From Paraburkholderia flagellata (GTDB lineage: Bacteria > Pseudomonadota > Gammaproteobacteria > Burkholderiales > Burkholderiaceae): a DNA stretch of 64,000 nt. The DNA is taken from positions 806,001 through 870,000 of the forward strand of contig NZ_JAJEJT010000002.1 of assembly GCF_021390645.1 (NCBI RefSeq), given 5' to 3'. The notes beneath the pieces were generated by a model. The model worked only from the letters and a program-made list of their open reading frames with translations. It was not told the DNA's origin and ran no database searches. Shown here piece by piece: positions 22,651 through 28,800 of this stretch (positions within the stretch are counted from its first letter, which is position 1; the number at the start of each line of letters is the position of its first letter). Position numbers and translations under genes: made by a program.

Positions 22651-23172
22651 ATGACCGATTCTTCTCCCGCAACCGATCCCGATTTCCCCGCCGAAGACCC
22701 TGCTGCCGAGGCCGAGGTGATCCAGGAAGCCCGCCTGTGGCGCAAGGACGGCTGGACCGCGCGCGTGATCAAGAATGAGGACGACGACGGCTGGGCCGTC
22801 GAAATGATCAAGGACGGCGAGCCGGAGCCTGCGTTAGTCGGCCCGTGGACCATGGGTCGCGACAAGAAAAATCCCAAGCCGCTCGATACGTCGGCGTTCA
22901 ACACGCTCGTGAAGACCGCTTCCGAGGTGTTGCGCCGGCACGAGCAGCAATTGCGCGCGCTGCTGCACAAGCGTGTGAGCGTGCAGACCGCTGAGGGCGA
23001 CGTGGACGTGACGCTCGATATCGTTCCCGACGAGTACGAGCCTTACGCGCTCGTCAGCGCGATCGACGCGTTTGGCGCACAACTCGCGCAGGCGCGCGTC
23101 GCGCCGAACTTCAAGCTCACGAAGGCGCGTGCCGAGTCCTGGGCCGAAGGCGGTTTCGGGCGGATCGAGTAA
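22651..23172 (+). CDS. Conserved hypothetical soluble protein
   Basis: A 173-residue acidic cytoplasmic protein without signal peptide or membrane helices. A disordered acidic N-terminus (about 25 residues) is followed by an alpha/beta region ('EARLWRKDGWTARVIKNEDDDGWAVEMIKDGEPEPALVG') and helical stretches 'FNTLVKTASEVLRRHEQQLRALLHKRVSV'. I do not recognise a named domain; composition and codon use match the host. It starts 224 bases after the candidate sRNA. Confidence 0.78.
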   Translation: MTDSSPATDPDFPAEDPAAEAEVIQEARLWRKDGWTARVIKNEDDDGWAVEMIKDGEPEPALVGPWTMGRDKKNPKPLDTSAFNTLVKTASEVLRRHEQQLRALLHKRVSVQTAEGDVDVTLDIVPDEYEPYALVSAIDAFGAQLAQARVAPNFKLTKARAESWAEGGFGRIE

Positions 23173-23190: not shown

Positions 23191-23625
23191 TCACTCCTGC
23201 TTGCAGAAGATCGCAGTCAATAGCGGACCGGCATGGTGGACGATGGCGTTATTGCCTGCCGCCGTGAGCGCCGCCTGCACCCTGGCCTGGGTGCCGACCA
23301 CGACCGCCCCATAGGCGGAAGGGGCGATGGGCTTGCCGTCGCCGGTCTTGAAAAGCGGGTCGTCCTTCTGGAAACCCACTATGGCGAACACGCTGAAGCC
23401 ATAGGCGGTCATGTGCCCGCCGCGCGCAGGCCAGAACGCGTTGATCGAATTGCTTTCGACCTTCATGGGTTTCGGATCGATCAGGCTTTGCGTGATCAGC
23501 CCCGAGATGAAGTCGTGCGCGGACTCGCTGCAGGTCAGCGAGTCGTCGATGACGGCGGCGCGGGCATTGCCGGCGAGAAGTGTCAGGAAAGCGAGAAAAA
23601 GGGCGGCAAAGGTAAAGCGTTTCAT
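23191..23625 (-). CDS. Secreted/periplasmic hypothetical protein
   Basis: A 144-residue protein with a clear signal peptide (MKRFTFAALFLAFLTLLAGN, cleavage about ARA-AVID). The mature protein contains two cysteines ('DDSLTCSE' near its start and 'AIFCKQE' at the end) that could form a disulfide, and motifs 'MTAYGFSVFAIVGFQKDDPLF' and 'YGAVVVGTQARVQAAL'. No family recognised. Convergent with the preceding hypothetical gene. Start chosen for the signal peptide; the longer frame upstream looks non-coding. Confidence 0.75.
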   Translation of the reverse strand: MKRFTFAALFLAFLTLLAGNARAAVIDDSLTCSESAHDFISGLITQSLIDPKPMKVESNSINAFWPARGGHMTAYGFSVFAIVGFQKDDPLFKTGDGKPIAPSAYGAVVVGTQARVQAALTAAGNNAIVHHAGPLLTAIFCKQE

Positions 23626-23843: not shown

Positions 23844-24545
23844 ATGACCGAAAAAGACAAACCTGCAAAAACGGCTCCGCGAGCGGTGCCGCTGCCGCGC
23901 ACGTGGGACGCTCGCGCGGCGCGTTGGCTCGTCACTCCGCTTGTACCCACGCGCGTTACCCCGAATCACCTGACCACGCTGCGACTCCTGATTGGCGTTG
24001 CCGGCGGCTTATATCTGGCGCGCGGAGGCTTTCTGCACGTCAATATTGGCGCATTTCTGATCGTATTGTCGAATTTTGTTGATCATACCGACGGCGAACT
24101 GGCGCGTATCAGCGGCAAAACCAGCCGTATCGGACATTTCTACGATCTCGCGGCGGACGCTCTCGTCACCGTCCTGCTGTTCCTGGGCATGGGCTATGGC
24201 CTCGGCGCCGTGGCCGGCCACTCGGGCGCCGGATGGCGTGTGCCGCCGGCCGTGCTCGGCGGCATCGCGGGCGTCGCGGTCGCCGTGATTTTTTTCCTGC
24301 GCATGCGCATCGAGGAAATGGCCGGCAAGGCGGGCACGCAACAGGCGTTCGCCGGCGGCTTCGAGACCGAGGACGTGCTGTATCTGCTACCCCTTGTCAC
24401 GCTGACGGGCGTCGTGTCGCCGTTCATTATCGCGGCTTCGATCGGGGCGCCGCTGTTCGCCATCTGGGTGGTGCTCGACTACGTGCGCATGACGCGCCGC
24501 CTGCGCCCCGCCAAGGAAACCGGTCAGGTGTGGAGCAGCCGATGA
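23844..24545 (+). CDS. CDP-alcohol phosphatidyltransferase-family enzyme
   Basis: A 233-residue integral membrane enzyme. The full catalytic signature D-x2-D-G-x2-A-R-x8-G-x3-D-x3-D is intact: Asp80, Asp83, Gly84, Ala87, Arg88, Gly97, Asp101, Asp105. About six transmembrane helices surround it. The family joins an alcohol or alcohol phosphate to a CMP-activated partner (diacylglycerol or a polar alcohol). Its stop overlaps the next start (ATGA), coupling it to a 2OG oxygenase. With the NTP transferase at the end of the set, it most simply uses a CDP-alcohol made by that enzyme. The head group is not predictable here; pgsA- or pssA-like housekeeping function is unlikely from context. Confidence 0.88.
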   Translation: MTEKDKPAKTAPRAVPLPRTWDARAARWLVTPLVPTRVTPNHLTTLRLLIGVAGGLYLARGGFLHVNIGAFLIVLSNFVDHTDGELARISGKTSRIGHFYDLAADALVTVLLFLGMGYGLGAVAGHSGAGWRVPPAVLGGIAGVAVAVIFFLRMRIEEMAGKAGTQQAFAGGFETEDVLYLLPLVTLTGVVSPFIIAASIGAPLFAIWVVLDYVRMTRRLRPAKETGQVWSSR

Positions 24546-25351
24546 GCTTGCAAGCAGAACAAGAACAGGTCGTAGTGCCTTCCGTCGCCGCTGTACCCCG
24601 CGTCGCACGTGCCGCGGCCGGCGAACCGGACGGCGCGATCGGCCGCGCGCTGCAGCCGTTGAACACCGCGCGCCTGCGCAGCGACTACGAGAGCCAGGGC
24701 TCGTTCCTGTACCTCTCCGATTTCCTGCCCGCCGACGCCACGCAACAGTTGATCGACGCGGCCAACGCGCTGCTTCCCGAAGTCAACCGCAACTATCTGC
24801 CGGGCCACAAGGCGGGCGGCAGCGTGAGCCGTCACACCATCGACCGCCTCGCGCCGTACATCGCCGAGCTTTACCGCTCGCCGCAACTGATCGCGTGGCT
24901 CGAAAAGATCACGGGCGACCGCCTCCAGCTTTCACCCGAAGACGACCCGCACGCGTACGCGCTCTATTACTACACGCGCGCCGGCGACCATATCGGCTGG
25001 CATTACGACACGTCGTATTACGACGGCCGCCGCTATACGGTGCTGCTCGGCGTGATCGACGAGTCGTCTTGCAAGCTCGACTACGAACTGCACACGAAAG
25101 ATCCGAACAAGGCGGATGAACCGGGCTCGGTGCAGTACCCGCCGGGCGCGCTCATCGTGTTCGATGGCGACAAGCTTCGCCATCGCGTCACGCCGAGCCT
25201 CGAAGGCGAAGTGCGCGTTTCGCTCACGCTCGAATACGTGACGAACCCGAACATGCGCCCGTGGCGCCGTTTTATCTCGAACATGAAGGACGCCATTGCG
25301 TACTTCGGTTTCCGCCAGGTGTTCCGCAAGGCGTTTGGAGGCAAGGCGTGA
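24542..25351 (+). CDS. 2-oxoglutarate/Fe(II)-dependent oxygenase
   Basis: A 269-residue double-stranded beta-helix oxygenase. The iron triad is complete: His154 and Asp156 in 'GWHYDTSYYDG' and His214 in 'LRHRVTPS'; Arg225 in 'GEVRVSLTLEY' would hold 2-oxoglutarate. The first 50 residues are low-complexity and likely disordered. Related proteins are sometimes grouped with HalD/BesD halogenases, but those have Gly in place of the Asp, so hydroxylation rather than halogenation is expected here. Translationally coupled on both sides (ATGA with the phosphatidyltransferase, GTGA with the flippase-like gene), which ties its substrate to the lipid these genes make. No membrane segment. Confidence 0.87.
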   Translation: MSLQAEQEQVVVPSVAAVPRVARAAAGEPDGAIGRALQPLNTARLRSDYESQGSFLYLSDFLPADATQQLIDAANALLPEVNRNYLPGHKAGGSVSRHTIDRLAPYIAELYRSPQLIAWLEKITGDRLQLSPEDDPHAYALYYYTRAGDHIGWHYDTSYYDGRRYTVLLGVIDESSCKLDYELHTKDPNKADEPGSVQYPPGALIVFDGDKLRHRVTPSLEGEVRVSLTLEYVTNPNMRPWRRFISNMKDAIAYFGFRQVFRKAFGGKA

Positions 25352-26358
25352 GCCGTGCTGCCATCCTGCTGCTGTCGATCGGCACGGCACTCTTCATTGC
25401 GCTGCTCGCCTGGCAGGGCCTCGGCTCGGTAACGGGCGCGCTTGCGGCCGCCGGTTGGGGGCTCGTGCTCGTCGCGGCGTTCCACATCGTGCCGCTCGCG
25501 CTCGACGCGGGTGCGATCGCCGTGCTCTTTGGAAAAGGCGAACGCGTCGATCAGCGTGATGCGCTGCTCGCGCGCTGGACGGGCGAATCGGTGAACAGCC
25601 TGTTGCCGGCAGGCCAGATCGGCGGCCCCGTAGCGATGGTGCGCCAGCTTGCCCAACGTGGCATGTCGATGCGCGACGCAGCCGCGGCCATCACCGTGAG
25701 CACCACGCTGCAGGCCGTTGCGCAGATCGTATTCGCCGTATTCGGCATCGTGCTTTTTTCGGCCTATGCCGCGAACGGCGCGCCGCGCGATCTCGGCATC
25801 GCGGCGCTGATCGCGACCGCCGTGCTCGGCGGCCTGATCGCGCTGTTCTATCTCGCGCAGCGCCGCGGTCTGTTCGGCCGCCTGCTGCGTCTCGCCTCGA
25901 AAGTGTTCGGCAAGCGCGACTGGTCGACGCTCGCCACGCGCGCCGATGCCATCGACGAGGCCGTGATGTCGCTTTACGCCCAGCGTGGCCGCGTGGCGGC
26001 CAGCTTCGTGCTGAGCCTCGCGGGCTGGCTCGTGGGCACGGTGGAGGTGTGGCTCGCGCTGCGTTTTCTCGGCCATCCCGTAGGCTGGATCGATGCGCTG
26101 CTGCTCGAGAGCATCGGCCAGGCCATTCGCGGTGCGGCCTTCGCCATTCCTGGCTCGCTGGGCGTGCAAGAGGGCGGCTATCTGCTGCTTGCGCCGCTCG
26201 TCGGCCTGCCGCCCGAGGCGGCGCTCGCGCTCTCGCTCGCCAAGCGCGCGCGCGAAATCCTGCTCGGCTTGCCGGGCCTTCTGTATCTGCATTTCAGCGA
26301 ACGTAGCTGGCAACGCCGGCGCGCCTCGCGCGTCTGCGCTGTCGAAGTCGCCGATTGA
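25348..26358 (+). CDS. Lysylphosphatidylglycerol-synthase TM-domain (flippase-like) protein
   Basis: A 336-residue polytopic membrane protein of the LPG_synthase_TM/UPF0104 family (about seven to eight helices), with the conserved 'SVNSLLPAGQIGGPVAMVRQL' and 'AFAIPGSLGVQEGGYLLLAPL' motifs. Only the flippase-like part is present; the C-terminal aminoacyl-transferase domain of MprF is missing. Start is GTG at 25348 overlapping the previous stop, with GGAGG nine bases before. HpnN/HpnL-like and MprF relatives move or handle lipids across the inner membrane, which suits translocation of the product of the two upstream genes. Confidence 0.85.
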   Translation: MSRAAILLLSIGTALFIALLAWQGLGSVTGALAAAGWGLVLVAAFHIVPLALDAGAIAVLFGKGERVDQRDALLARWTGESVNSLLPAGQIGGPVAMVRQLAQRGMSMRDAAAAITVSTTLQAVAQIVFAVFGIVLFSAYAANGAPRDLGIAALIATAVLGGLIALFYLAQRRGLFGRLLRLASKVFGKRDWSTLATRADAIDEAVMSLYAQRGRVAASFVLSLAGWLVGTVEVWLALRFLGHPVGWIDALLLESIGQAIRGAAFAIPGSLGVQEGGYLLLAPLVGLPPEAALALSLAKRAREILLGLPGLLYLHFSERSWQRRRASRVCAVEVAD

Positions 26359-26386
26359 CCTTTTTTCTCCCAAGGAACGTTTGCGC

Positions 26387-27166
26387 ATGCGCGCCATCAT
26401 TCTCGCGGCAGGCCTCGGCCTGCGCCTTCAGCAACAAGCTGGAGAACAGTTTCCGAAATGTCTGCTGCAGTTCGAGGGCGTGACGCTGCTCGAACGCCAT
26501 CTGCAATTGCTGGAAGAGGCGGGCGTGACGGAAGTCGTGCTCGCGCTCGGTTTCCAGCCTGAACTGGTCGAGGCCGAACTCAAGCGCATCAACTGGCCGC
26601 ACAAGGTCGAGGTCGTGATGAATCCGCGCTTCGATCTCGGCAGCGTGCTCACGGTGCATCGCACGGCAGAGGCGCTCACGCGCGGCGACGACGTGCTGCT
26701 CATGGACGCCGATGTGCTCTACGACGAACGCGTGTTCGCGCCGCTCGTCGCGGGCGAGGCGCCGGCCAATCGCTTGCTGATCGACCGCGACTTCGAAGCC
26801 GGCGACGAGCCCGTGAAGCTGTGCCTGCGCGACGGCGTGCCCGTCGAACTGCGCAAGCAACTGGCGGTCGGTCTGCAATACGACATGATCGGCGAGTCGG
26901 TGGGCTTCTTCCGCCTGAACGAAGCAACGGCCCGTCGCTTTGCGCAGATCGTCGAAGGCTATGTCGATACGGGCCGCGCGAACCTGCCGCATGAAGAAGC
27001 GCTGCGCGACCTGCTGCTCGAGCGCGGCAACGAGTTCGAAACCGCGGACGTGACCGGCGCGCCGTGGATCGAAATCGACTTCCCCAATGACGTGACGCGC
27101 GCCGCGGAACAGGTGCTGCCGCAACTGCGTCCGGTGGTGAGCCGTGTGAAGCAGGCGGCTCTCTGA
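26387..27166 (+). CDS. NTP transferase (sugar/alcohol-phosphate nucleotidylyltransferase)
   Basis: A 259-residue Rossmann-like nucleotidyltransferase. The nucleotide-binding signature is N-terminal: 'AIILAAGLGLRL' followed by F-P-K (Lys24), as in LicC/PntC/IspD-like cytidylyltransferases and sugar nucleotidyltransferases. 'LLMDADVLYDERVF' gives the metal-binding Asp pair, and 'WIEIDFPNDVTRA' the C-terminal Asp seen in this family. 'AAG.G.RL....FPKCLL' favours a CTP:alcohol-phosphate type. AAGGAACG precedes ATG 26387, 28 bases after the flippase-like gene. It probably makes the CDP-activated head group for the first enzyme; substrate unknown. Confidence 0.85.
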   Translation: MRAIILAAGLGLRLQQQAGEQFPKCLLQFEGVTLLERHLQLLEEAGVTEVVLALGFQPELVEAELKRINWPHKVEVVMNPRFDLGSVLTVHRTAEALTRGDDVLLMDADVLYDERVFAPLVAGEAPANRLLIDRDFEAGDEPVKLCLRDGVPVELRKQLAVGLQYDMIGESVGFFRLNEATARRFAQIVEGYVDTGRANLPHEEALRDLLLERGNEFETADVTGAPWIEIDFPNDVTRAAEQVLPQLRPVVSRVKQAAL

Positions 27167-27396: not shown

Positions 27397-28800
27397 ATGC
27401 CATTAGCCCTCGGCACATTCATCGTTCCGCTCATTGTCGCGTGCTCGATGTTCATGGAGAACGTGGACGGGACGGTCATCGTCACCTCGCTCCCCGCACT
27501 GGCCCGCGATCTCGGCCAGGACCCCATCACACTCAAGCTGGCCGTCACGAGCTATGTGATCGGCTTGGGCGTGTTCATCCCGATTTGCGGCTGGGTGGCC
27601 GATCGCTTCGGCTCGCGCAATGTGTTTCGCACGGCCATCGGCATCTTCATGGCGGGGTCGCTGTTGTGCGCGGCTTCGAGGTCGCTCGAGATGTTCGTGG
27701 CCGCACGCTTCGTGCAGGGCATCGGCGGCGCGATGATGGTGCCGGTGGGCCGCATCATCATCTTCCGTTCGCTGCCCAAGTCGGACTTCATTCGCGCGGT
27801 CAACTATCTCACGGTGCCCGCGTTGCTCGGGCCGGTCGTGGGGCCGCCGCTTGGCGGGTTCATCACCACGTATCTGCATTGGCGGCTGATTTTCTTCATC
27901 AACATTCCGATTGGCGTGCTCGGCATCTGGCTCGCGAACCGGCATATCGCGAACATGCACGAGGAGCATCCGGGGCGGCTCGACTGGCCGGGCTTCGTGC
28001 TCTCGGCGGGCGGGGCGTCGCTATTTATGCTCGGCCTTTCGCTCGTGGGCGGCGAACTCGTCGCCACTGGCACGGCGGTGACGATGTGCGTGATCGGCGC
28101 GTTGCTGCTCGCAGCCTATTGGTTGTATGCGCAACGTGTCGAGCGGCCCGTGCTCGATCTGAAATTTCTGCGCATTCCCACGTTCAACGCGAGCGTGGCC
28201 GGCGGGTCGCTTTTTCGCATCGGGCTCGGCGCCGTGCCTTTTTTGTTACCGCTCACGCTGCAGGAAGGGCTCGGCATGACGGCGTTCGCCTCGGGCGCCA
28301 TCACTTGCGCTTCGGCGTTCGGCTCGATCTTCATGAAGGCGATCGTTTCGCGCGTCCTCGGGCGCTTTGGCTTTCGCCGCACGCTGATGGTCAACGCGGT
28401 GCTCGCGGGGACGGCCATCGCGATATGCGGCTCGTTTTCGCCTGGCATGCCGGTGTGGCTCATCTGGGTCATCGTGCTCGCGGGCGGGATCTTTCCTTCG
28501 CTGCAATTCACCGGCCTCAACTCGCTCGCCTATGCCGATATTCCGACGCGCGACATTGGCCGCGCTACGAGCGTAGCAAGCGTGATCCAGCAGGTATCGC
28601 TCGGCCTCGGCGTGACGATTGCGGGCCTCGTGCTGCAGATTTCGCATCGTGTGCAAGGGCATTCGACCATCGTCTGGTCCGATTTCTGGCCGGCGTTTCT
28701 CGTGGTCGGGCTCTTTTCGGTGGCGTCGATTCCGGTGACGATGCGTTTGCCCGCGAATGCCGGAGAAGAAATTGCGCGCGGCCGGCGCGGCAAGGCTTGA
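27397..28800 (+). CDS. DHA2-family MFS drug exporter, MdtD-like
   Basis: A 467-residue transporter with about 14 helices. Motifs of drug:H+ antiporters: 'MENVDGTVIVTSLPALARDLG' (helix 1), 'GWVADRFGSRNVFR' (motif A), 'RFVQGIGGAMMVPVGR' (motif B) and 'LGPVVGPPLGGFIT' (motif C). Stand-alone gene between the lipid cluster and ggt. The 35819-37246 gene is a paralogue with the same blocks. Substrate unknown. The 230 bases before it hold no gene. Confidence 0.92.
   Translation: MPLALGTFIVPLIVACSMFMENVDGTVIVTSLPALARDLGQDPITLKLAVTSYVIGLGVFIPICGWVADRFGSRNVFRTAIGIFMAGSLLCAASRSLEMFVAARFVQGIGGAMMVPVGRIIIFRSLPKSDFIRAVNYLTVPALLGPVVGPPLGGFITTYLHWRLIFFINIPIGVLGIWLANRHIANMHEEHPGRLDWPGFVLSAGGASLFMLGLSLVGGELVATGTAVTMCVIGALLLAAYWLYAQRVERPVLDLKFLRIPTFNASVAGGSLFRIGLGAVPFLLPLTLQEGLGMTAFASGAITCASAFGSIFMKAIVSRVLGRFGFRRTLMVNAVLAGTAIAICGSFSPGMPVWLIWVIVLAGGIFPSLQFTGLNSLAYADIPTRDIGRATSVASVIQQVSLGLGVTIAGLVLQISHRVQGHSTIVWSDFWPAFLVVGLFSVASIPVTMRLPANAGEEIARGRRGKA

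Follow-up and report, generated by a model that had tools for sequence, protein, structure and literature searches.

What does a compact cluster of four lipid-type genes in the genome of Paraburkholderia flagellata make, and which head group would it install? The cluster lies in a 64,000-nucleotide stretch of contig NZ_JAJEJT010000002.1 (positions 806,001 to 870,000, assembly GCF_021390645.1), referred to below as the window. A preliminary description, made from the window alone, had seen in these genes a route to an undescribed and probably hydroxylated phospholipid, had left the head group unknown and had set aside a phosphonolipid because no phosphoenolpyruvate (PEP) mutase gene was present. 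We arrive at a different answer: the cluster is probably the lipid-making half of a two-locus pathway for a phosphonolipid derived from 2-aminoethylphosphonate (AEP) and, given such a pathway, its AEP head group would probably be hydroxylated. The evidence, which can be read directly from the genomes, comprises the genes present and their order, residues that are conserved, linkage in other genera and co-inheritance. The four genes are as follows.

23844-24545, forward strand: CDP-alcohol phosphatidyltransferase (PF01066, 47.4 bits)
24542-25351, forward strand: 2-oxoglutarate (2OG)/Fe(II) oxygenase of the HalD/BesD family (HalD PF23169, 41.6 bits)
25348-26358, forward strand: HpnL-family flippase-like membrane protein (LPG_synthase_TM, 105.3 bits; NCBIfam TIGR03476, 358.9 bits against a cut-off of 195.65)
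26387-27166, forward strand: PntC/LicC-like nucleoside triphosphate (NTP) transferase (NTP_transf_3, 51.2 bits)

The transferase and oxygenase genes overlap by ATGA and the oxygenase and HpnL-type genes by GTGA, and the NTP transferase gene starts 28 bases past the stop codon of the HpnL-type gene. The genes, their coordinates and both overlaps, together with the catalytic residues considered below, were all borne out on re-examination. Conservation of gene order, suggested earlier as a check, was found at 38 of 38 oxygenase loci, the window's own included, and the cluster is therefore not a product of chance; the exception, G009, lies outside these 38 loci and has lost its HpnL gene.

The head group is suggested by the neighbours of the cluster in other genera. 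Regions of 16-18 kb around the cluster were compared, 14 in all: three come from the genus of the window and 11 from ten further genera. All 11 regions from other genera carry, in one order, genes for the transferase, oxygenase, HpnL-type protein, NTP transferase, PEP mutase, phosphonopyruvate decarboxylase and AEP transaminase, the PEP mutase at these seven-gene loci having a fused NTP domain. The three regions from the window's own genus resemble the window in that PEP mutase, decarboxylase and transaminase do not adjoin the four genes. The absence of a PEP mutase noted earlier holds for the window and fails for the genome, where the set is found on the same contig, about 516 kb before the four-gene half:

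G000:C2:309598-313509, window's own genome: PEP mutase, phosphonopyruvate decarboxylase and AEP transaminase

All three products exceed their curated cut-offs (PEP mutase, TIGR02320, 401.8 bits against 319.55; decarboxylase, TIGR03297, 462.9 against 312.5; transaminase, TIGR03301, 416.8 against 360.8). The PEP mutase motif EDKxxxxxNS is present in 31 of 31 rows, including that of this genome. With the PEP mutase set in the genome itself, and adjoining the cluster in ten genera, neither the verdict of an unknown head group nor the dismissal of a phosphonolipid is supported.

A similar division runs through 80 loci from named records. In 62 of them, titled Paraburkholderia or Burkholderia, a major facilitator superfamily (MFS) gene directly follows the NTP transferase gene, at the place where others have PEP mutase; in 17 (13 titled Caballeronia, two Cupriavidus and two Burkholderia) the genes for PEP mutase and decarboxylase come next, joined in 12 by that for AEP transaminase, and the one remaining contig is too short to tell. 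Where the halves are apart, the distance between the four genes and PEP mutase varies, from about 54 kb in G026 and 97 kb in G003 to the 516 kb of the window's genome. Beside the remote PEP mutase, three of 13 genomes examined retain a copy or relic of the NTP transferase gene, which argues for an ancestral linkage of both halves. G557 has a second intact copy, 71% identical to that of the window (80% for its main-cluster copy), while G593 and G003 each keep a C-terminal piece (E 8e-6 and 1e-11, respectively) together with an N-terminal fragment that is short and, by itself, a weak match (E 0.002 and 1.5). A tree built from 35 of the 106 NTP transferase rows places the extra copy of G557, with weak support (90/65), outside the genus's 17 main-cluster copies. 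The split would fit an origin from a seven-gene ancestor by duplication of at least the NTP transferase gene and loss of one copy.

The two halves are also inherited together. Of 35 genomes from the window's genus, 30 have the oxygenase, which also occurs in 60 of 120 genomes of the family (11 of 25 genera) and in five of 398 genomes sampled across the phylum, all five from this family, in a search that admitted E values up to 1e-10 and scored at most six candidates per genome. Its closest named relatives, 94-96% identical, are from the Paraburkholderia species P. silvatlantica, P. heleia, P. hiiakae and P. guartelaensis; beyond the family, a figure legend of PMC5987646 lists a 2OG-Fe(II) oxidase in a cluster from Nostoc. 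Among the 120 family genomes, 59 have both oxygenase and PEP mutase (one of these, G109, matches the mutase domain only), one has the oxygenase alone (G122), none PEP mutase alone and 60 neither. PEP mutase occurs in 84 of 97 genomes of the genus and, in the 41 scored for both proteins, 32 have both, three only the oxygenase (G008, G009 and G122), none only PEP mutase and six neither. Thirteen genus genomes are free of PEP mutase, and in all nine of these that were searched phosphonopyruvate decarboxylase was not found either. The four-gene half is in decay in G009, which lacks PEP mutase: HpnL has no match there and the other three genes are truncated.

In the pathway that we infer, the remote locus would convert PEP successively to phosphonopyruvate, phosphonoacetaldehyde and AEP by means of PEP mutase, decarboxylase and transaminase. 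The oxygenase would then hydroxylate AEP, most likely at C1 and most likely on the free small molecule, to yield 1-hydroxy-2-aminoethylphosphonate (HAEP), which the NTP transferase would activate with cytidine triphosphate (CTP) to its cytidine monophosphate (CMP) conjugate, CMP-HAEP. From this conjugate the CDP-alcohol transferase would pass the phosphonyl group on to a lipid alcohol, of which diacylglycerol is the simplest choice, and the HpnL-type protein would move the lipid across the membrane. Each of these reactions is a prediction, as are the site and timing of the hydroxylation, the lipid acceptor, and the transport and its direction. The donor logic is like that of the eukaryotic Kennedy pathway, in which a CDP-alcohol donor is moved to diacylglycerol, but here the head group would carry a C–P bond and the setting is bacterial. 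The predicted product is a phosphono-analogue of phosphatidylethanolamine (PE), and its hydroxylated form would be an exact mass isomer of PE.

Activation as a CMP or CDP conjugate, transfer by a CDP-alcohol transferase and the use of a dedicated membrane protein, all parts of the route first proposed, draw support from the proteins themselves. The transferase belongs to PF01066, and its motif D..DG..AR.{8,9}G...D...D, with D80, D83, D101 and D105 as the intact catalytic Asp set in the window, is kept in 97 of 97 rows (95 distinct). The transferase and oxygenase rows span over 75% of the query, shorter ones having been left out, and a few are duplicates or come from one strain. As judged by curated scores, rather than phylogeny, it is neither PgsA (TIGR00560, 28.7 bits against a cut-off of 109.1) nor PssA (TIGR00473, 18 against 107), in agreement with the preliminary description; two further PF01066 genes lie elsewhere in the genome.

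The best match of the NTP transferase among solved profiles is PntC (6pd1 = Tde1415; E 5.9e-13, positions 2-246 of 250), and its canonical residues G9, G11, R13, K24, D107, D109, E229 and D231 are present in 106 of 106 rows. In excerpts of PMC6697681, both PntC enzymes assayed prefer AEP over phosphocholine and an AEP-selective amine pocket is ascribed to Glu104 and Glu196 of Tde-PntC. We propose that the window's enzyme is a CTP:(H)AEP cytidylyltransferase and, of the two NTP transferase domains in the pathway, likely the one that activates the head group, since neither the LAAGxGxRL motif nor the E-I-D metal site is present in any of the 31 rows of the domain fused to PEP mutase. Examples of genes with this altered domain are:

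L073:7602-9236: PEP mutase with altered fused NTP domain
L051:10923-12599: PEP mutase with altered fused NTP domain

The fused domain is perhaps retired or structural. Two points count against assigning activation to the stand-alone enzyme: LicC is still the best match of the fused domain (E 5.1e-14), which Pfam NTP_transf_3 also recognises, and PEP mutase-NTP fusions are taken as functional partners in excerpts of PMC6697681.

The oxygenase retains the intact His-x-Asp...His triad (H154, D156 and H214) and R225 in 98 of 98 rows (96 distinct). By profile and fold, its nearest solved relatives are HalB, HalD and BesD, with the lysine hydroxylase 7jsd appearing from rank 19 in the fold comparison, and the halogenases and the hydroxylase share a common fold and family with it. 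In halogenases, Gly or Ala replaces the iron-binding Asp and makes room for the halide. HalD and BesD have Gly at this position, whereas the window's oxygenase has Asp (D156), so that hydroxylation rather than halogenation is expected; we propose that it is an AEP hydroxylase, its family being distinct from the one to which the catabolic PhnY* belongs. Among the best 120 of 3773 relatives, some bear the public names 'HalD/BesD family halogenase' or 'alkylated DNA repair dioxygenase AlkB'. A halogenase was rejected despite such names, on the invariance of the iron-binding Asp, and the score against the BesD L-lysine 4-chlorinase model (NF042920, 27.2 against 450 bits) is below cut-off.

For the membrane protein, a role as lipid translocator is proposed. 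The genome encodes two other HpnL copies, 32 and 30% identical to that of the cluster, and HpnJ is found near both (825.6 and 826.2 bits against a cut-off of 577.6), which makes the cluster's third copy look recruited to another lipid. The two hopanoid loci with HpnJ and HpnL are:

G000:C1:1926000-1945000 (L059)
G000:C4:844000-863000 (L060)

Several observations weigh against an AEP-derived phosphonolipid or against particular steps towards it. The Caballeronia loci L121, L131, L138, L158 and L159 have PEP mutase and decarboxylase with no AEP transaminase at the locus, and the only relatives in their genomes are 25-37% identical; these strains may use a different transaminase or may have a different head group. 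The amine pocket of the NTP transferase is a mixture of PntC (AEP) and LicC (phosphocholine) features, D107, as in LicC, facing Glu104 of Tde-PntC and L206 aligning with its Glu196, with E203 and E204 two to three residues off. The structure model of the oxygenase is of modest confidence (predicted local distance difference test, pLDDT, 68.7), and its solved HalD/BesD relatives were, from their structure titles, crystallised with amino acids and not phosphonates. The Fisher p values for co-occurrence, 1.3e-33 in the family and 1.9e-5 in the genus, ignore shared ancestry and are overstated, and genes of one cluster are co-inherited for that reason alone. Finally, G008 (L074) and G122 (L076), the chief exceptions to the joint inheritance, carry the four genes intact, and PEP mutase and decarboxylase were not found in them.

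The alternative that survives best is a variant of the proposed pathway in which the lipid would carry plain AEP and the oxygenase would act elsewhere, on the acyl chain, another carbon of the head group or a different small molecule. It gains from the fact that the HalD/BesD family fixes no substrate and that AEP hydroxylation is deduced from gene linkage. However, the oxygenase gene stands between the transferase and membrane-protein genes at all 38 loci, PEP mutase accompanies it in 59 of the 60 oxygenase-bearing family genomes and its solved relatives use small amine-bearing molecules, to go by structure titles; we consider the variant unlikely. Another possibility, which we rate as quite unlikely, is that the four-gene half, once separated from PEP mutase, has become a free-standing module. 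In G008, G122 and similar strains, and perhaps in the lineage of the window, it would activate and hydroxylate a scavenged aminophosphonate or other small amine phosphate; the head group would then depend on which compounds the cell imports or synthesises.

It appears distinctly improbable that the phosphonate is put on a glycan instead of a lipid. Glycans and lipids are both likely targets of most bacterial AEP clusters according to excerpts of PMC6697681, but the transferase here belongs to the CDP-alcohol phosphatidyltransferase family, and no LicD or glycosyltransferase was found among the seven flanking window genes scanned by family; the flanks in other genera were compared only among themselves. 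A head group of the usual phosphate-ester type (ethanolamine, choline, inositol or glycerol), left open in the preliminary description and unconnected with phosphonates, would suit the lack of a phosphonate gene in the window and the two genomes, G008 and G122, that keep the four genes without PEP mutase, but it leaves the linkage in ten genera and the 59 of 60 co-occurrence unaccounted for and is very improbable. A new head group without phosphonate was likewise rejected, on the PEP mutase linkage, the set in the genome itself and the co-occurrence. A hopanoid-decorating cluster, to which the TIGR03476 match of the membrane protein might point, is scarcely credible and was rejected, as HpnJ lies beside the other two HpnL copies and no hopanoid family matched in the seven flanking window genes scanned.

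The AEP-derived phosphonolipid preferred here is of a known kind. The Fig. 7 legend of PMC5987646, after Yu et al. 2013 (its reference 75), presents a phosphonolipid cluster of a lichen Nostoc with a homologous Burkholderia cluster, comprising, as here, CDP-alcohol phosphatidyltransferase, 2OG-Fe(II) oxidase, NTP transferase, pepM, ppd, AEP transaminase and hpnL, and HAEP is among the abbreviations of that paper; a gene set already printed in this way cannot be called undescribed. The likeness is to the legend and not to the Nostoc sequence, and the window's genus differs in having the set at two distant loci. The Pnt pathways, as excerpted from PMC6697681, share the logic of PEP mutase, decarboxylase, transaminase and LicC-like cytidylyltransferase, whereas the present set adds the CDP-alcohol transferase, the oxygenase and the HpnL protein and has a fused NTP domain that, though LicC-like, is without canonical residues. 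A lipid with an HAEP head group has been reported, namely a sphingophosphonolipid of Bdellovibrio stolpii (Watanabe 2001, as cited in PMC8154272), which is comparable with our proposal in its hydroxylated AEP head group, not by sequence, and has a sphingolipid backbone.

In the literature searched, from which subscription papers were mostly absent, we found no account of the split, the NTP transferase relics or the altered fused domain, no statement that an HAEP lipid is isobaric with PE and no lipid measurement for this cluster. HAEP and phosphoethanolamine share, by arithmetic, one formula, C2H8NO4P, so that a diacylglycerol lipid of HAEP would have the mass of PE and, if hydroxylated as proposed, could pass as PE in routine lipidomics and perhaps has been overlooked for that reason. 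The un-hydroxylated lipid would be 16 Da lighter, in line with the shift suggested earlier for an oxygenase mutant. Were the proposal correct, the bacteria behind about half of the sampled family genomes (the 59 of 120 with both halves) would have a C–P bond in a membrane lipid, and the oxygenase gene would offer a candidate AEP hydroxylase that serves biosynthesis. Burkholderia-type bacteria of soil, plant-associated and clinical origin are among the named oxygenase-bearing records. Genome mining that starts from PEP mutase, or from the lipid genes alone, would overlook pathways that are split in this way.

Seven genes flanking the cluster were scanned by family. Besides the three listed here, they encode a YdjM protein, a porin, a gamma-glutamyltranspeptidase and a LuxR-type regulator. 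No housekeeping lipid gene is among them, as the preliminary description had stated, the remainder of the 64 kb lying outside the family scan.

22651-23172, forward strand: 173-residue protein, no Pfam or NCBIfam match
23191-23625, reverse strand: 144-residue protein, apparently secreted (judged by eye), no Pfam or NCBIfam match
27397-28800, forward strand: MFS transporter, DHA2/MdtD-like (family scan)

The first and last of these border the four genes in 60 of the 80 named loci. A promoter scan gave nothing, and nine terminator-like sites were observed against 4.0 (sd 2.5) expected, the majority inside genes. The divergent open reading frame at 23191-23625 was considered as an eighth pathway gene and rejected: its relatives, found in 51 of 120 family genomes and often with a second copy, occur without the oxygenase in six (G071, G092, G108, G132, G135 and G170), and the frame is thus not pathway-specific. 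Of the 80 named loci, 77 carry a relative; its place is the distal end, immediately after the transaminase or decarboxylase gene, in 14 of the 15 PEP mutase loci with a Caballeronia or Burkholderia title.

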